A DNA stretch of 64,000 nt. It comes from Blastocatellia bacterium (GTDB lineage Bacteria > Acidobacteriota > Blastocatellia > Pyrinomonadales > Pyrinomonadaceae). A program made the position numbers and the translations under genes. Shown here one piece after another: positions 1,109 to 24,110 of the stretch. Below the pieces are notes generated by a model that did no database searches, had not been told where the DNA came from, and saw only the letters and a program-made list of their open reading frames with translations. The DNA is taken from positions 186,001-250,000 of the forward strand of contig JAEUQK010000029.1 in assembly GCA_016789265.1 (NCBI GenBank), read 5' to 3'. Position 1 is the first letter of the stretch; each line of letters begins with the position of its first letter.

Positions 1109-2809
1109 CTAAATCGTTTTCTTTATGGCGGTCAGGCCTTCTTCTACGGTCACGCCGTTGCCGAGGTGAACTCTTAACGCTCGGCGGCCGCGATCCAGCA
1201 GTACTTGAAAATCGCCGCGGGCCTGAGCGGCTTTGACCACGCCGAAAGTGTACTTTTGTCCAGGCACCGGAAGGTCTGCAGCGTCGTCCGCGGTGATCTG
1301 CAGAAACACGCCGTTGTTTGCGCCGCCCTTATAGGCTTGGCCGGTCGAGTGTAGAAAACGCGGCCCGAAACCGAGGCAGGTCGCCGAAAGTTCCTTTTCA
1401 AGGACCGTTTCCCTGATCGCTTGAAGTGCCGCTTCATGCTCGGCGCTCATCTCGAAGTAAGCGAGCAAGGCGAAATAATCACCGGAGCCGAGTCGTGAAA
1501 GATGCGCTTTCAGATACGACGAAAGCGATCTGTTTTCACCGACGATCGAGTTCAACGCATCGACGTTCACGTCGTCGCTGAAAAGGGCGATCCCGTCTGA
1601 TCCAAAGAACGGAGTTTCGTCGGGCAGCGAACCGGTTCGTTCGTATTCTTCGGTGATCTTTCGAGCCTCGATCTTTGCAGATTCGACGTCAGGTTGGTTG
1701 AAAGGATTGATCCCCATCACGGCTCCCGCAACCGCGGTGGCAAATTCCCATCGGAAGAACTCCTGAGATATGTGATAGAGACTTTCCAGTTCAATGCGGA
1801 TCAAAGGATGCCCGGCGCGTTCGATGTCCTCGAGCCGTTGGTAAACATCCTCATCTGTTGCACCGCCCTTCAACGCCAGGTGAACGAACACGCGGTCATT
1901 GTAATAATTCTCGGCGTCGATGATCGGTTCGCGATCGACCGGAATGATCGCAACGCCGTTCTTGCCGGTAGATTCGGCGATCAATTGTTCAAGCCACGCA
2001 CCGAGATCGTACAGTTCGGGTGACGTGAAGATCGTCAATTTGTCTCGCCGTTGAGCGTGACAAACACCAAGGACGAGTCCGAGCAATGCACCGGGATTTT
2101 CTGCCGGGTCCCCACGTTTGCAGAGTTCTGCCATAGCATTCGCACGTGCAAGGAGAATATCAACATCCAATCCCATCGCGGCGGCCGCGACCAAGCCGAA
2201 CGCTGACAACGCAGAAAAGCGTCCGCCGATCTCAGGTTTTCCGTAGAAAATATGTCGAAAGCCATCGGCCTTCGCGATCTGCTCCATTTTGGATCCCGGA
2301 TCGGTGATCGCTACAAACTGTTTACCCGGACGATCGGTTATCTGTGACACGCGGTCGAAGAAATACTGTTTGAAGCAATTCGGTTCGAGTGTAGAGCCCG
2401 ATTTACTCGCGACGATGAAAAGAGTTTTACCAAGGTCTAGTTTCTCCTCTACTGCCTTTACCTGTGCAGGGTCCGTAGAATCAAGAATGTGAAAGTTCTT
2501 CTTGCCAAATGTGATTGACAAGACCTCAGGGCAGAGCGATGAGCCGCCCATTCCCATCAGCAGCACATCGTCAAATCCGCTCATCTCGATATCCTTTTGC
2601 AGCGCGTAGTAGCCACCTGTGCTTCCGATCTCTTCGGAAACTATCGTCAGCCAGCCGAGCCATTTAGCTTCATCTTCGTCTGACCAGACGGAAGCATCCT
2701 TTTCCCATATCCGATGGATCGTATTCTTCGAGTTCCAAAGGTCGATCTGCTCCTTTATTGCGTCCTCGATCTTTGGCGGGAGCGAGTAAGAAACTGAATT
2801 GATAGACAT
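1109..2809 (-). CDS. pgi: Glucose-6-phosphate isomerase, of the type fused to transaldolase in other bacteria
   Basis: Interconverts glucose-6-phosphate and fructose-6-phosphate in the cytoplasm. The protein has 566 residues with two SIS-type sugar-isomerase halves. Visible motifs are GMGGSS (86-91), SKSGSTLE (135-142), IGGRFSALS (194-202), EQLIAESTGKNG (274-285) and, near the end, FLHSTGQ followed by a lysine at about residue 494, the usual catalytic lysine position. The sequence resembles the isomerase half of transaldolase/phosphoglucose isomerase fusions more than the classical E. coli enzyme. No transaldolase is fused or adjacent: the upstream neighbour is a divergent TPR gene. A GGAA-type ribosome binding site precedes the ATG. 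Confidence 0.88.
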   Translation of the reverse strand: MSINSVSYSLPPKIEDAIKEQIDLWNSKNTIHRIWEKDASVWSDEDEAKWLGWLTIVSEEIGSTGGYYALQKDIEMSGFDDVLLMGMGGSSLCPEVLSITFGKKNFHILDSTDPAQVKAVEEKLDLGKTLFIVASKSGSTLEPNCFKQYFFDRVSQITDRPGKQFVAITDPGSKMEQIAKADGFRHIFYGKPEIGGRFSALSAFGLVAAAAMGLDVDILLARANAMAELCKRGDPAENPGALLGLVLGVCHAQRRDKLTIFTSPELYDLGAWLEQLIAESTGKNGVAIIPVDREPIIDAENYYNDRVFVHLALKGGATDEDVYQRLEDIERAGHPLIRIELESLYHISQEFFRWEFATAVAGAVMGINPFNQPDVESAKIEARKITEEYERTGSLPDETPFFGSDGIALFSDDVNVDALNSIVGENRSLSSYLKAHLSRLGSGDYFALLAYFEMSAEHEAALQAIRETVLEKELSATCLGFGPRFLHSTGQAYKGGANNGVFLQITADDAADLPVPGQKYTFGVVKAAQARGDFQVLLDRGRRALRVHLGNGVTVEEGLTAIKKTI

Positions 2810-2932
2810 TATTTCCGTGTTCCTTTTCGTTATATTCGTGTTTCGATATTTTCAATCATCTGCTGCGATAAAACAAAGAACAAGATGAAGCCAAGTCGCC
2901 GGACGATGATTTCGTCTGATAATATGTTCGCC

Positions 2933-3841
2933 ATGAAGACATTCGCCGTGCTCATTCTCCTTTCAGTTGCGGCCGTTTCAGCGACAGCCCAACCGTGCGT
3001 CGATTCCGCGAAGCAGGTAATTCCGTCATTTTCAGAATCGACTGCGAAAACCTACGAGGCTGATCTCGCCATTGCACGTGAGGCTCATACCAGGAATCCC
3101 GACAACGCGGATGAGTTGATCTGGTACGGACGGCGAACGGCTTATACGGGCAAATACAAAGAGGCGATCAAGATCTTCACGGAAGGGATAAAGAAATTTC
3201 CGAATGATGCTCGAATGTTTCGCCACCGGGGCCATCGCTACATCACGCTTCGATGTTTCGATGATGCGATCAATGACTTCGAACACGCCGCTAAGATGAT
3301 CAAGGGTAAAGCCGATGAGATCGAACGGGACGGCATCCCGAACGCACGAAATATACCGACCAGCACGCTGCAGTCGAACATCTGGTATCATCTCGGCCTT
3401 GCATATTACCTCACGGGTAATTTCAAGAAAGCTGAACGTGCTTATGCCGAGTGCCAAAAGGTCTCTAAGAACAACGACATGCTCGTCGCGACCGTTTGCT
3501 GGCGTTATATGACCCTTCGCCGGATGGGCAAAGCGAAAGATGCGAAGCGACTGCTCGATTCGATGCCGAAAGAGATCGAAGTGATAGAAAATGACGATTA
3601 CCTGAAACTCATCAGTTTGAACCGCGACGAGGTCAGACCAGAAGATCTTCTATCAACGATCCGCGGCGATGCGAACACGCTCGGGTCTGCTTCGCTCGGG
3701 TACGGCATTGGGAATTATTTCCTTTACAACGGCGATAAGGATAAGGCATACACGATATTTCGAAAAATAGTCGAGGGCGACCAATGGTCAAGTTTCGGCT
3801 ATATAGCATCGGAAACCGAGATCAAGCGGGTCGTCCGTTGA
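2933..3841 (+). CDS. Secreted TPR-repeat protein
   Basis: The ATG at 2933 is preferred because it begins directly with a signal peptide ending in an AxA-type site (ATAQP). An ATG at 2885 would put sixteen polar residues before it, and neither has a strong ribosome binding site. The mature protein of roughly 280 residues contains several TPR-like helical pairs in its first half, for example NPDNADELIWYGRR and FPNDARMFRHRGHRY, then IWYHLGLAYYLTGNFKKAERAY. TPRs usually mediate protein contacts; no enzyme motif is visible. It probably acts in the periplasm. The gene is divergent from pgi and convergent with ino1. Specific function is unknown. Confidence 0.7.
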   Translation: MKTFAVLILLSVAAVSATAQPCVDSAKQVIPSFSESTAKTYEADLAIAREAHTRNPDNADELIWYGRRTAYTGKYKEAIKIFTEGIKKFPNDARMFRHRGHRYITLRCFDDAINDFEHAAKMIKGKADEIERDGIPNARNIPTSTLQSNIWYHLGLAYYLTGNFKKAERAYAECQKVSKNNDMLVATVCWRYMTLRRMGKAKDAKRLLDSMPKEIEVIENDDYLKLISLNRDEVRPEDLLSTIRGDANTLGSASLGYGIGNYFLYNGDKDKAYTIFRKIVEGDQWSSFGYIASETEIKRVVR

Positions 3842-18579: not shown

Positions 18580-18741
18580 ATGGCAGACACGCCTGAATCG
18601 AAGCCTTCCTTTTGGTCATCCCTGCCGGGTATCTTTACAGGACTTGGCGGCCTCATCGCCGCTTTGGCCGCGCTCATTACCGCGCTTTACTCCACGGGAG
18701 TGATAGGCACAAAGTCCGTTTCCAATGAGTGCCGCCGGTGA
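18580..18741 (+). CDS. 53-residue membrane peptide, first part of a coupled or split gene
   Basis: The ATG at 18580 is preceded by TTGGAG about nine bases upstream. The product (starting MADTPESKPSFW) has a glycine- and alanine-rich hydrophobic helix at about residues 15-40, ending in a short polar tail. This N-terminal helix style normally continues into a soluble domain after a proline-rich linker; here the frame stops at 18741 while the linker and domain continue in another frame. The stop overlaps a GTG of that frame as GTGA. Either a frameshift split one gene, or the two parts are coupled by reinitiation. Confidence 0.5.
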   Translation: MADTPESKPSFWSSLPGIFTGLGGLIAALAALITALYSTGVIGTKSVSNECRR

Positions 18742-19175
18742 ATTCATCGGTAACGATGGCAACTTCGCCATCTCCTTCACCAACGCCTGACAATGATCGC
18801 TACAAGGCATTGATAGGTAAATGGAGGGTCACCGAAGAGCCGCCCTTGGATCCTTATTTTGCAGAAGTGGATCGAGTGACTTGGGATTATGACGCAGAGG
18901 TCACAGGCAACGAATTAACGCTTACGGGGAGGATATTGTTCATTTCAAATGTCGACGATAAACCGAATAAGGATGAACAGCGTATCCGTGCGACCCTTAG
19001 GACGACGCTTACAGGTTTGAGCGGCGAAGGGAGTTACGAGTTTACGCGGATAAAAGGCGATCCGGTAGACAATGGTGCGATGATCAGATTGAAAGACAAC
19101 CTCAGGGAGTTCGATGTAGAAGTCAAGAACGAGGCCGACGCGATGTCCCAAAGATTAAAGGGCAGGAAACTATGA
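18738..19175 (+). CDS. Small soluble domain, second part of a coupled or split gene
   Basis: The frame can start at the GTG overlapping the previous stop (18738). An in-frame GTG at 18729 is also possible. It begins with an S/T/P-rich linker (ATSPSPSPTPDNDRYKALIGKW) and continues for about 110 residues with alternating hydrophobic positions typical of a beta barrel (WRVTEE, NELTLTGRILF, RIRATLRTTLTGLSGEGSYEF). The opening LIGKW style resembles lipocalin-like or DUF-type small barrels that bind hydrophobic ligands, but no family is certain. Together with the upstream helix it would make a membrane-anchored protein of about 195 residues. Confidence 0.5.
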   Translation: MNSSVTMATSPSPSPTPDNDRYKALIGKWRVTEEPPLDPYFAEVDRVTWDYDAEVTGNELTLTGRILFISNVDDKPNKDEQRIRATLRTTLTGLSGEGSYEFTRIKGDPVDNGAMIRLKDNLREFDVEVKNEADAMSQRLKGRKL

Positions 19176-19249: not shown

Positions 19250-21142
19250 CTAGCCGTGCGATGAGTCGGCGCTTTTTGCATCGGATTCTGACTCACTAGG
19301 TTTTTTTGTAAATCCCGAAATATTCCAGCGGCTTTCGATATTTTTGAAGAGTCGAAGATTGTTAAAGAATGCGTTCGAGCCTCCGCTACCGCCGAGTTTT
19401 GAACCTTCCTGTCCGGCGAGTTTCGAACCTTCCTGTCCGGCGAGTTTCGAACCTTCCTGTCCGGCGAGTTTCGAGCCTTCCTGTCCGGCGAGTTTCGAGC
19501 CTTCCTGTCCGGCGAGTTTTGAGCCTTCTTGTCCGGCTAGCTTCGAGCCCTCCTGACCAGCGAGTTTTGAGCCTTCCTGTCCGGCTAGCTTCGAGCCCTC
19601 CTGACCAGCGAGTTTTGAGCCTTCTTGTCCGGCTAGCTTCGAGCCCTCCTGACCAGCGAGTTTTGAGCCTTCCTGTCCGGCGAGTTTAGCTTCCGAGGCC
19701 ACTGCATTTCCGCCAAACGAACCCTCGTCAAACCTCACTCCAGAGTAGTATCGATATCTTGAACCTGCCGATCCATTGACCTCGGGCGGTTCAAACTTTC
19801 GGAGAGCCACTTCGTAGAGATATTTCTTGAGAAAACCCGTCCAGGTAAATTGTTTTGAACGGCCGCTGTCTTTTGCAAAAAAGAGGCCCTCGTAGTTTTT
19901 TCGTGAAACATCGTAGCCCGCGCGCGACCACGGGAAGAAGACCGAGATGCCGTTCGAATATTGATATTCTCCGCCGCTGAAACCGCTCAGAATTACGGCT
20001 TTATCAAGCTCGGTAAGCACGTTTCGGCAGGCGGCTTGAAGTTCTACCAGTATCTCTGTATCGCCGCCGCCGCCAAGCTCGTCGATCAGCGTGGTGCATT
20101 CCTTACCGAGCAGCTCACAGAAGTCTCCGAGGTCAATATTTTGGTCGTACATGTATGATTGGCACTTCCAATGCACTTGCAAAACGACGCGTTCCATCTG
20201 ACGGTAAATGCGGCTGTTCGGGTCGTCAAAACACGCAAGAAGAGTGATCGCCAGGCCGTCGAATGCGATCGTAAGATCCTGCAGCTTACTTAGGTCCCAT
20301 GCCGCCATATCGACCGATGACCCGCCGATGGTGAATGCGTCCTGCGACCTGATAAACTCCCGGACAAAACGTTCGGCGAAAGCATTAGGATCGCACTTTC
20401 CGCGATTTTCGTTAGCAAGAGTTCCGAGTATCTTTGCGTAGGTCCAGCCGGCGCTCGGTACGCTGCCCTCCGAGGCGATCATTGTTCTGGCGACAGAACT
20501 GAATTGGTAACCGACCTCGAGCATTCCCATCACGCAAGCGTCAAATCCGAGCAGATCCAGAGGTTGCCCAAGAAGCTCAGTCGTTTCGCGCGCGAGTTCG
20601 TCGGCATCGAGATCAAGCCCTTTTACATATCCCTTCAGCTCGTCCTCGGTTCGAACGAGCCGATCGAGCATGATGAATAGGTCATTCATCTTCATTGTCT
20701 TGCCCGAGGTCTCATCTTTGAAAAGCCCGATGTCCTGAAAGCCGAGCGAGTGTCCCGAAAAGATCAGCGCATATTTATTCGCTCGGCGGCCGTAGGTGAT
20801 CTCCCCGTTTTCGTTTACTACCTCGACATTATTGACACACCAATCGACGAAATTAATGACCGACCGTTTGTCAGCAGCATTTTCATTCTGCTTGGCGGGC
20901 GTCGGGTAAAGTTTGTCGGGCACCTTGAACGACCGAACGTACTTCGCCCTCTTAGGATCCGAGAAATCGCAATACAACGTTGGTATCGATGGCGAGTTGC
21001 CGTCGTAATAGACAAACAAATTCGGGCTATCCGGTCCCTCGCCTGCCACGCCCTTTATCTGCTCAAGAGCATAAGCCATATCGACGGCAAGATTGTTGTC
21101 GCCTGCCATATAGATCATTATCGTCCATTCTTTCCGGTCCAT
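19250..21142 (-). CDS. Clostripain-family (C11) cysteine peptidase with KLAGQEGS repeats
   Basis: The start at 21142 has GGAG ten bases upstream and begins directly with the family's WTIMIYMAGDNNL strand; a longer start at 21199 adds nothing recognisable. The catalytic dyad is H131 (IFSGHSLG) and C203 (LLGFDACVMGMLEV), as in clostripain, gingipain-like and PmC11 enzymes that cut after basic residues. A C-terminal peptidase part ends near residue 465. Twelve perfect KLAGQEGS octapeptides follow, plus one degenerate copy, at about 486-589, then a 41-residue tail. No signal peptide is visible, so it is cytoplasmic or exported by an unrecognised route. The lysines in the repeats could be self-cleavage sites. 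Confidence 0.85.
   Translation of the reverse strand: MDRKEWTIMIYMAGDNNLAVDMAYALEQIKGVAGEGPDSPNLFVYYDGNSPSIPTLYCDFSDPKRAKYVRSFKVPDKLYPTPAKQNENAADKRSVINFVDWCVNNVEVVNENGEITYGRRANKYALIFSGHSLGFQDIGLFKDETSGKTMKMNDLFIMLDRLVRTEDELKGYVKGLDLDADELARETTELLGQPLDLLGFDACVMGMLEVGYQFSSVARTMIASEGSVPSAGWTYAKILGTLANENRGKCDPNAFAERFVREFIRSQDAFTIGGSSVDMAAWDLSKLQDLTIAFDGLAITLLACFDDPNSRIYRQMERVVLQVHWKCQSYMYDQNIDLGDFCELLGKECTTLIDELGGGGDTEILVELQAACRNVLTELDKAVILSGFSGGEYQYSNGISVFFPWSRAGYDVSRKNYEGLFFAKDSGRSKQFTWTGFLKKYLYEVALRKFEPPEVNGSAGSRYRYYSGVRFDEGSFGGNAVASEAKLAGQEGSKLAGQEGSKLAGQEGSKLAGQEGSKLAGQEGSKLAGQEGSKLAGQEGSKLAGQEGSKLAGQEGSKLAGQEGSKLAGQEGSKLAGQEGSKLGGSGGSNAFFNNLRLFKNIESRWNISGFTKKPSESESDAKSADSSHG
19404..19688. 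repeat. 24-bp coding tandem repeat (twelve units), with 48-bp higher-order units
   Basis: About twelve units of 24 bases encode the KLAGQEGS octapeptides of the minus-strand peptidase. Two sequence variants of the unit alternate in the centre, making a 48-bp unit repeated about three times. The protein sequence is identical in all twelve units although the DNA differs by synonymous changes. This points to slippage-driven expansion followed by selection on the peptide. It is not a CRISPR array: there are no unique spacers. Confidence 0.93.
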
Positions 21143-21431
21143 TGTATGAGGTCTCCTACAGCGGGCTGCATCCACCAGAACTTCGTTTCCGGTTCGCACA
21201 AGCTGTGATCAAATCTAAGGGAGTGAACGGTATGAACCAAATATATGTCAATTAAGCTATTGAGCAAAGCGATCTTTTGTTAACGGACTTAAAAATCGCC
21301 CGTTGATACTACTGCTTCACAAGCTAATTCTGCCTGTATTTGTGTTGTTCCGGACGCCATTTCCTGCTAACCTCTGTTAAGTTTTCCCGACATTCAACTG
21401 CATTTCTTGCTTTTTGTAGAACTGATTCTTA

Positions 21432-24110
21432 ATGACGGACGAGGTCGAAAAAGCCGGCAAGACATTGGAAGGCCAGGATCCAGCCGACAGTATTGAGACT
21501 AGAGTGCTCGAAACTGATGGCGACCAGGCTCAAGTGTCAGAAAGAGCGTCTTCAGGCCTGGGCGAAGGGGTTGTCATAAATGGCCGTTATCGCGTTGTCG
21601 GACTGCTCGGAAAGGGTGGGATGGGAGAGGTGTACCTCGCCGACGACACTAAGATAAATCGAAAGGTCGCGCTTAAGGTACTTCATTCCGACCGTGTTTC
21701 AAATGATGAAAGCATAAAGCGATTTTCCCAGGAGGCACAGGCTGTTTCGGCCCTCAATCACCCTCACATAATGACGGTCTATGAGATCGAGTCGACCGAA
21801 GACGGAACTCTCTTTTTCGTGGCCGAGTTTGTGGATGGGCAGACATTGAATCATCTGATCGCCCGCGGTATCGCGATCGAGACGGCGTTGGATATAGCCA
21901 TTCAGACGCTGTCGGCATTGTCTGCCGCTCATGATGCGGGCTTGGTCCACCGCGATATAAAGCCCGAGAACATAATGATCCGCCGCGATGGTTATGTTAA
22001 GGTCCTCGATTTCGGACTTGCTAAACTCGGCCAGCAGGAGACCGATCATCTTAGCCCGGGCTCCGAAGATCCTACGCAGGCTTTGCTTCGCACACGGCCC
22101 GGTACGGTCATGGGGACCGCCGCGTATATGTCGCCCGAGCAGGCCCGCGGGCTGCAGATCGACGGGCGTTCCGACCTGTGGAGCGTCGGCGTGGTGCTTT
22201 ACGAAATGATCTCCGGCAAACGGCCGTTCGCAGGGGACACTGCCGCGGATCTAATTGTCTCGATACTCTCCGGCGAACCGCCGGAACTCACGTCCGCAAT
22301 GCGCGGCCTGCCAGGCGAGGTCGAGCAGATCGTCGCAAAAGCCCTTTCAAAAAAAGTAGAAGATCGATATCAGACGGCCGCCGAATTTCGTTCCGATCTG
22401 GAGAATGCCAGACGACTCCTGCAACAGAATATCAACAACCAGCGGACGGCCGAACACTCGGGGCTCGATGCACGCCAGCACGAGACGGACGGCAAGGACC
22501 GCAAGATCGGTGATGGCTTGGCGACGGCCGTAGCTCTTGGCGCAATGCCGACGCACGGCGGCCCTGCAAATACGTCCGGAGGCACTAAAGAGGGAATAAA
22601 TGGCGAGGTCGTCGCCTCAACAGTTGAGCCTCGCCACCGAATGCTTCGCTGGGCGCTGATCACGGTCGTGCTGATCGCGGCTGTTTCGCTGATCGGGTAT
22701 TTTGTATTTCTTCCGGCCCGAACCGGTCCGTCGATCGAATCGATAGCCGTTCTCCCGCTCGAAAATCTGACCGGTGATCAGAACTTCGAATATGTTTCTG
22801 ACGGCATTAGCGAAAGGCTCATTGACCGTCTCGCTCAACTGCCTCAAATAAAGGTGATCTCTCGAAGTTCGAGCTTTAAGCTTCGGGGCGAGAGTGCCGA
22901 CCCGATAGCGGCCGCTTCAAAGCTTGGGGTCACAACTATCGTTACCGGCAGTTTGAGAAAGCTGGGAGACAGCCTGGAGGTTTCGATCGAGATCATCGAT
23001 GCCGGTGAGGACCGTCGATTAGCAGGCGGTACATATCGCCGAAGTGCATCAGATGTATTGGGTATCCAAAAGGAAATATCACAGACGACCGCCGAACAGC
23101 TTCGCCTAAAACTAACGAACGAACAGTCGAAGCGCTTTCTCGACAGCGGCACCTCCAATGCCGAAGCGTATCGTTATTATCTGAACGGCCTTGTCGAACT
23201 CAACGGGCCGATGGACGTGCGCGGAAATGCGCTTGAATATTTCGAACGCGCAGCCTCTATAGATCCGGACTTTGCCGATGCCTATGCCCAGATCGCATGG
23301 ATCTACTGGTCACGTGCAAACGGAAGCGACGATCCCAGCGAACTGGTGCCGAAGGCAAAGGCAGCGGCGGAGCGAGCCGTGGCATTGGGGCCCGATCTAT
23401 CTAAAGGACATGTCATTCAGGCGATGATCGGAGAGTATGAATTCGATTGGAAGACGGCCGAGCGCGAATATACAAAGGCTATCGAATTGAGTCCGAACGA
23501 CGATTTTGCCCGCAACAATTATGCGTTCTTTCTCTCCGTAATGGGCCGTCAGGACGAGGCTCTTGCCCAACTTGAGGAACAGCGGCTTCGTGACCCGATA
23601 AACCGGCGAATGTGGCTGCTTCAGCGCGGCATAATCCTTACACAGTCCCGAAGATTTGACGATGCACTCGCGGCATACACCGAGGCCCAGGCGATCGAGC
23701 CTACGCGTGAGATCCCAAATTTTTCGCTCGGTTATGTTTACGCCGGCAAGGGAATGTACTCGGAAGCCGCCGTCTATTATAAACGAGCGGTCGATGCCTT
23801 AGGCGGTGAGAATAAATACAGCCAACCGCTGGTTTATCTTGCGGCAGCGTACGCCAAAATACCCGCGCGGCAGCCTGAATCACGTCAGATACTTTCGCGG
23901 ATCGCGTCAACGGGCCAATATACTTCTCCGGCGATAGTGGCCGTAGGCTATGCCGCCCTTGGTGATGATCCGAAAGCGATCGAACTGCTTGAAAAGGCAT
24001 ATATCGACCACGACCCACTGTTGCGTTTCATAGCAACCGGATATGAATACGATTCGCTTCGCGGCGATTCTCGCTTCACTCAACTCGTGAAACGGATCGG
24101 CCTTGAATAG
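21432..24110 (+). CDS. Membrane Ser/Thr protein kinase with extracytoplasmic FlgO-like and TPR domains
   Basis: A PknB-type receptor kinase of 892 residues. The cytoplasmic kinase domain (about 53-330) has GKGGMGEV (60-67), ATP-binding K82, HRDIKPEN (173-180), DFG (193-195) and the APE-like SPEQARG, so it should be active. One membrane helix is at about 406-427. Outside follow an FlgO-like domain (about 436-560; IAVLPLENLTGDQNFEYVSDG) and TPR repeats to the end. The N-terminal tail has a TRVLETD segment. The same FlgO and TPR module occurs in the paralogues at 28-42 kb, suggesting a shared signal. Signal and targets are unknown. Confidence 0.9.
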   Translation: MTDEVEKAGKTLEGQDPADSIETRVLETDGDQAQVSERASSGLGEGVVINGRYRVVGLLGKGGMGEVYLADDTKINRKVALKVLHSDRVSNDESIKRFSQEAQAVSALNHPHIMTVYEIESTEDGTLFFVAEFVDGQTLNHLIARGIAIETALDIAIQTLSALSAAHDAGLVHRDIKPENIMIRRDGYVKVLDFGLAKLGQQETDHLSPGSEDPTQALLRTRPGTVMGTAAYMSPEQARGLQIDGRSDLWSVGVVLYEMISGKRPFAGDTAADLIVSILSGEPPELTSAMRGLPGEVEQIVAKALSKKVEDRYQTAAEFRSDLENARRLLQQNINNQRTAEHSGLDARQHETDGKDRKIGDGLATAVALGAMPTHGGPANTSGGTKEGINGEVVASTVEPRHRMLRWALITVVLIAAVSLIGYFVFLPARTGPSIESIAVLPLENLTGDQNFEYVSDGISERLIDRLAQLPQIKVISRSSSFKLRGESADPIAAASKLGVTTIVTGSLRKLGDSLEVSIEIIDAGEDRRLAGGTYRRSASDVLGIQKEISQTTAEQLRLKLTNEQSKRFLDSGTSNAEAYRYYLNGLVELNGPMDVRGNALEYFERAASIDPDFADAYAQIAWIYWSRANGSDDPSELVPKAKAAAERAVALGPDLSKGHVIQAMIGEYEFDWKTAEREYTKAIELSPNDDFARNNYAFFLSVMGRQDEALAQLEEQRLRDPINRRMWLLQRGIILTQSRRFDDALAAYTEAQAIEPTREIPNFSLGYVYAGKGMYSEAAVYYKRAVDALGGENKYSQPLVYLAAAYAKIPARQPESRQILSRIASTGQYTSPAIVAVGYAALGDDPKAIELLEKAYIDHDPLLRFIATGYEYDSLRGDSRFTQLVKRIGLE

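Follow-up and report, generated by a model that had tools for sequence, protein, structure and literature searches.

Clostripain-family peptidases of Blastocatellia with an internal array of one-basic-residue peptide units, a putative multicopy substrate carried in cis

Many C11 (clostripain-family) peptidases of Blastocatellia carry an array of short, nearly identical peptide units, always at the same place in the protein. Directly supported by the data are this architecture and its conservation while the unit itself turns over, the presence of one Lys or Arg per unit, purifying selection on the units, an intact catalytic dyad with its S1 Asp, and a characteristic gene neighbourhood. An Arg/Lys-type protease with a disordered array in cis, each unit of which has one basic residue, is best read as carrying its own multicopy substrate, which the C11 enzyme would cut after each Lys/Arg to give many copies of one short peptide; we hold this reading with moderate confidence. 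If cutting does occur at each Lys of the loop, a single molecule would be both protease and multicopy peptide precursor. The many C11s with conserved peptide arrays (that of the window without an evident signal peptide), often found beside CHAT, anti-sigma, and sigma genes, point to undescribed proteolytic signalling in Acidobacteriota. Literature searches on clostripain/C11, Blastocatellia C11s, CHAT/sigma, SAVED-CHAT, conflict systems, multicore peptides, and self-cleaving or pheromone peptides listed no description of a C11 protease carrying its own peptide array.

The gene lies on the minus strand at 19250-21142 of the window, i.e. the whole 64,000-nt stretch of DNA that was analyzed, which comes from a soil-type bacterium. 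It encodes a 630-aa protein with an internal peptide array, starts with an ATG at 21140-21142, and is preceded by a ribosome-binding-site-like AGGAGA (21152-21157, minus strand). A first-pass annotation, made from the sequence alone, had called the product a clostripain-like peptidase, and this is borne out by a real ORF with a match to Pfam Peptidase_C11 (PF03415; E 6.9e-24, 85.5 bits versus a cut-off of 25.8), which places the protein in family C11. It is not clostripain proper, as its score with the equivalog model TIGR02806 is 35.8 bits, far under the cut-off of 550. The catalytic and C-terminal C11 domain spans aa 1-448 (19799-21142), as assessed by Pfam, alignment, and model match. Alignment places the dyad at His131 (20750-20752) and Cys203 (20534-20536), both intact and present in 46 of 46 rows; the latter, already named as catalytic in the first pass, aligns with the catalytic Cys of C11. 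The S1 residue Asp201 (20540-20542), two residues before Cys203 at the Arg/Lys-specificity position, is kept in 44 of 46 rows. The C11 family is best known for secreted proteases, in agreement with several PDB titles. By eye, the N terminus of the window protein (MDRKEWTIMIYMAGDNNL) contains no hydrophobic stretch, in agreement with the earlier statement that there is no signal peptide, and no export route is evident for it. Three C11 proteins, including that of the window, match none of the PADLOC families at E ≤ 0.01, which speaks against a known anti-phage defence system.

The array consists of 12 perfect KLAGQEGS units at aa 486-581 (19400-19687, minus strand), followed by a degenerate 13th unit, KLGGSGGS, at aa 582-589 (19376-19399). 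TRF reports it as a tandem array at 19374-19687 with a period of 24 and a score of 416. An alignment of the 12 units shows variation in 8 of its 24 nucleotide columns, all of them synonymous third positions, and no replacement changes in the 18 non-synonymous sites per unit. Twelve perfect repeats, identical as peptides and differing by synonymous changes in the DNA, had been reported in the first pass; TRF and unit alignment confirm both points and add the degenerate thirteenth unit. The accompanying claim of selection on the peptide also stands, and holds in all 36 Blastocatellia arrays. No second copy of the repeat was found in the window genome, where a search with the whole protein at E ≤ 10 gave two matches only, the second being a truncated C11 without the repeat.

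The AlphaFold model of the window protein aligns, within residues 2-447, with 6n9j, which we take to be thetapain (Z 32.4, rmsd 2.5, 317 aligned), and with clostripain 9cip (Z 31.3, rmsd 2.8, 368 aligned). The predicted structure thus has the C11 fold, including its C-terminal domain; legumain and other clan CD folds are only remote (Z about 9). Residues 474-588 have a pLDDT below 50, with values of about 30 in the array, which is predicted to be disordered, and aa 590-625 follow with block means of about 67-80 and a modelled helix end and strand. Because the low-confidence array is followed by a better-modelled segment, it looks like an internal disordered loop, with the catalytic domain before it and a C-terminal element of higher predicted confidence after it, and not like a free tail. 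This conserved element (NAFFNNLRLFKNIESRWNISGFTKKP..., 19268-19375, minus strand) is predicted to be partly folded and contains a [KR]N motif. Of 32 complete array-bearing tails, 31 have the motif after the array; where there is no array, 22 of 23 tails contain it (19 in a stricter form). These counts leave aside the secreted type and 8 loci interrupted by a contig end, a run of N, or truncation. The model of one relative, L056, has a C-terminal end of low confidence. In a subgroup of C11s (L141, L143, L151, L153, L161, L162, and L169), the end around [KR]N is Cys-rich, of the 'CxC.SIKNFP' type, and arrays are mostly weak or absent.

Relatives were sought with the window protein in 60 related genomes, 29 of which matched, some only to the low-complexity array. 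C11s were found in 50 of 162 genomes of the class and in 39 of 396 genomes across the phylum, and contigs with record titles supplied 79 loci. A tandem array occupies the same place in 36 of 74 distinct Blastocatellia C11s. Assignment to this set rests on kinship of the genomes or on the title of the record, and 8 of its C11s are of a different type, secreted or fused. Of the 74, 68 extend to the end of the catalytic region and continue for at least 25 aa beyond it, and 32 of these 68 have no array detectable by a method that misses degenerate ones (e.g. L009/L048). Arrays are commoner in C11s than in neighbouring ORFs, where they occur in 6 of 558. Outside Blastocatellia, no array was found in the 21 C11s (of 51) whose tails are likewise 25 aa or longer. 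The first-pass annotation had envisaged that relatives might lack the repeat entirely, which is true of these distant relatives only and not of Blastocatellia. Three of 26 further C11s from other Acidobacteriota classes have arrays: EGGPYSGK in three copies, with one K per unit, followed by VKNPP (L221); a degenerate 11-mer with one K (L223); and, in a multi-domain protein whose N terminus is signal-like, an acidic repeat lacking K/R (L216), which is a counterexample.

The same-place arrays comprise 17 unit families with periods of 5-10 aa, and the unit is completely different between families. These are [KR][LI]AGQEG[ST] and kin, LGGSGSSTK, RLGTGQG, VPPYDVDNK, FRVEGNPV, DNPHWNK/NNPPWSK/KFTPPYV, RSNPSAS, DGLPFTK, KNGDIN, RMMTD, REVGG, AETAR, DFPELGTK, KAGQGNPE, ALEKASG, LGKAGGNDP, and SGALEPSDKS. 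In a gene tree of 65 rows, which includes 3 outgroups and omits the 8 secreted/fused C11s and the short rows L002, L166, L167, and L168, sister lineages differ in unit and period. The tail of L052 has WSKD-type units and then NPSASR units, which looks like unit replacement under way. As judged from these comparisons, the unit peptide is lineage-specific and the whole unit is replaced over longer times. The tail had also been proposed to be length-variable; this holds to the extent that near orthologues with the same kind of unit (one genome per species) have about 7 to 12 copies. Several array-bearing relatives have only 2-3 units.

Other repeats were met among the loci. Long ORFs of one genus (L019, L020, L021, L022, L024, and L028; at about positions 1270-3300 in each) contain long GITLTGAD/NGITLTGADG repeats with no K/R in the unit, in contrast to the C11 arrays, and the L028 ORF resembles a secreted subtilisin-type protease. 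At L025 and L027 (genomes G038 and G042), tandem DNA repeats with many TGA codons matched the low-complexity region of the window protein. With their 8-codon period, which reads LSPCHLVT in one L025 frame, they look non-coding.

What the C11 arrays share is the number of basic residues. Exactly one K/R is present in 35 of 36 array consensus units and in all 17 family representatives; at the level of single units the figure is 204 of 213, with none in 1 and more in 8. Other residue classes are not universal, the next best being LIVM (29 of 36 arrays), S/T (27), and D/E (26). When residues were permuted among the 17 representatives, 0 of 20000 permutations reached the one-K/R pattern. As a control, the same detector was applied to the 1062 non-C11 ORFs of all loci and found 20 distinct arrays, among them several subtilase-like repeats that are homologous to one another and some arrays probably read in antisense frames; of the 20, 3 have one K/R, 15 none, and 2 more (Fisher p 1.9e-10 versus C11 arrays, relatedness ignored). 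Seven arrays have both K and R in the basic column. Of 236 basic-column positions in all, 235 are K or R, and Pro never directly follows K/R in the 17 representatives. The tandem C11 pair of L060 (6116-7939 and 7971-9872) has Glu in place of the S1 Asp in both proteins, neither of which has a K/R array, possibly a single case of specificity change together with ladder loss. That one K/R is kept while the peptide turns over completely suggests that the enzyme bears peptides of its own and sets them free. The putative self-cleavage ladder of the first pass is well supported by this comparison, one K/R being the sole feature kept in all 17 unrelated families, and by the presence of the S1 Asp.

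The rest of the unit is nonetheless nearly as constant within arrays, more so than a plain K/R ladder needs: the consensus residue is kept at 1432 of 1473 non-basic positions. Within-array values pooled over the 36 arrays are 0.560 for pS and 0.037 for pN (ratio 0.067), pS exceeds pN in 36 of 36, and synonymous differences between units are often large while the peptide is unchanged. Every array is under purifying selection, and the constraint spans the whole unit. Since pS exceeds pN in each array, each copy matters, beyond its basic residue, and conservation of the whole unit suggests that the peptide matters and not just the cut.

The scheme that we favour is as follows. A cysteine peptidase of family C11, with no signal sequence that can be recognised, would carry a multicopy substrate in cis, the disordered loop leading from the catalytic domain to the C-terminal element and holding identical 5-10-residue units with one Lys/Arg each. 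An active C11 site, either its own or that of a sister molecule, would cut after each basic residue. Each lineage would thereby free its own short peptide in many copies (LAGQEGSK in the case of the window protein), and the peptides may act on something rather than being waste.

The neighbourhood of the relatives, which the first-pass annotation had not seen, places them in a CHAT/anti-sigma/sigma block. Among the 56 loci whose sequence continues for 300 nt or more past C11, 42 have a CHAT-TPR-family gene directly downstream of it, all in one large cluster, and an anti-sigma-like and/or small sigma-like gene is present in 12 of 13 CHAT loci with at least 5.5 kb downstream; the CHAT, kinase, sigma, and anti-sigma labels come from BLAST clustering, with family searches on few members. 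Pfam identified CHAT in L056, the single member put through the scan (E 2.5e-58); of 28 long members, all have the Cys motif and 26 the His motif. By eye, CHAT N termini are signal-like. Among seven anti-sigma-cluster proteins scanned with Pfam, zf-HC2 is over the cut-off in three (L058, L163, and L153) and not in the other four (L056, L110, L002, and L054). An NCBIfam scan of three sigma-cluster proteins gave matches to ECF sigma models, all below the curated cut-offs. Genes for CHAT, anti-sigma, and sigma proteins are absent beside the window C11 gene, its clade has no CHAT gene, and 11 array-bearing loci have no adjacent CHAT. Instead, a gene for a divergent Ser/Thr kinase with TPR repeats, conserved in part of the window clade, lies at 21432-24110 on the plus strand, as assessed by clustering and family scan. 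Such a kinase-TPR gene occurs within 5 kb in 7 of 14 loci without CHAT, and in L036, L037, and L045 it is just upstream of C11 on the same strand. The window C11 falls in an offshoot that has a Ser/Thr kinase-TPR gene as neighbour. The truncated second C11 of the window genome (L002, 1414-2139, 242 aa) has intact-looking anti-sigma-like and sigma-like genes (3-572 and 606-1421) and no CHAT gene, and is apparently a decayed copy of the C11 gene block. A small ORF at 18729-19175 of the window adjoins the C11 gene; its relatives outside the window locus are found only near the L040 C11, in two copies. The idea that units copy a site in a partner protein was rejected, as the cognate CHAT, anti-sigma, sigma, and kinase proteins contain no unit-like sequence in excess over non-cognate partners (mean rank p 0.57, 0.52, 0.62, and 0.37, respectively).

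A more far-reaching version, which we put forward only tentatively and by analogy, is a bacterial counterpart of the yeast alpha-factor precursor with precursor and protease in one protein. On activation, the enzyme would cut its own loop and free about a dozen copies of a lineage-specific 5-10-mer, an alarm or signal. Its reader might be the TPR protein encoded alongside, which is kinase-TPR in the window and CHAT-TPR in most relatives, with coupling to a switch made of anti-sigma and sigma factors. If so, the turnover of the peptide between lineages would amount to pheromone-like specificity.

Other explanations have to be weighed against a substrate carried in cis. An unconstrained spacer or slippage product without function is hardly credible: short-period repeats do expand and contract, and copy number differs among relatives, but the pN/pS ratio, the excess of pS in every array with its often large synonymous differences, and the rarity of arrays in neighbouring ORFs lead us to reject it. 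The constancy of whole units and the predicted disorder of the loop would suit an uncut multivalent docking platform, of which the RNA polymerase II tail repeats are an example, each unit binding one copy of a partner through a motif that includes the basic residue. We consider this unlikely, because it gives no reason why 17 unrelated families should all keep exactly one Lys/Arg and nothing else, and leaves the Arg/Lys-type S1 site of the carrier unexplained; nor is there a partner candidate with unit-like sequence, although binding would not need one.

If the array is cut, the cutter could be the partner CHAT-TPR protease, in the fashion of a caspase-like cascade, rather than C11. The position of the CHAT-TPR-family gene directly after C11 in most loci and its conserved Cys and His motifs speak for this, whereas the array-bearing loci of the window clade without an adjacent CHAT gene, and signal-like N termini that may put CHAT and C11 in different compartments, make it quite improbable. 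An autoinhibitory pseudo-substrate or timer is a serious rival that we regard as possible, if doubtful. Units would fill the active site in turn, and cutting of the array would free a docked C-terminal element and activate the enzyme, the peptides being by-products. The location of the loop before an element of higher predicted confidence, the near-constant [KR]N motif, and the activation of PmC11 and clostripain by autocleavage after Lys/Arg, with loss of a nonapeptide in clostripain (PMC4850288), are consistent with such a timer. On the other hand, a timer needs its basic sites but has no need for identical residues around them, the units number just 2-3 in several relatives, and the C-terminal element of the L056 model is of low confidence. 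A timer could hold together with peptide release, so that our confidences in these two readings overlap.

The window protein is like PmC11, clostripain, and thetapain (PF03415) in its His/Cys dyad, its S1 Asp two residues before Cys, and its expected Arg/Lys preference in P1, and like the last two in its fold (Z 31-32 to the model). PmC11 accepts Arg/Lys in P1 and autoprocesses at Lys147, its Asp177 corresponding to window D201, and a nonapeptide is excised from clostripain between Arg181 and Arg190 (PMC4850288). Autoprocessing is thus known in family C11, but as described there it involves one or two internal sites and no multicopy loop, and no array is present in the three PDB alignments examined.

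In its logic, the array resembles the fungal Kex2-processed repeat proteins (KEPs), which include yeast alpha-factor precursors and whose short core peptides are highly repeated, protease-cut, and highly diverse between species (PMC7329392). As in KEPs, the tandem units are near-identical and each has a basic residue as putative processing site. Kex2 sites are typically dibasic, whereas a single K/R is present per unit here. KEPs also have a signal peptide and a separate protease, Kex2 (PMC7329392), whereas the window array is inside the C11 protease itself, whose N terminus (MDRKEWTIMIYMAGDNNL) has, by eye, no signal peptide.

Cascades from a SAVED-CHAT protease to a second protease are known; the one CHAT protein scanned here has no SAVED domain. 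In CRISPR-linked Csx29-Csx30-CASP-sigma, CalpL/T/S, and SAVED-CHAT systems, a CHAT or other protease is encoded with a sigma-factor inhibitor (PMC10028731, PMC11417357, and PMC11229360). The resemblance to KEPs is one of logic and that to the CRISPR-linked systems one of gene block; by these analogies, neither is membership. Like the CRISPR-linked protease/anti-sigma/sigma systems, the CHAT-linked relatives carry CHAT-TPR, anti-sigma-like, and sigma-like genes; unlike them, they have a second, C11 protease with a peptide array, which in the window stands without a CHAT neighbour.
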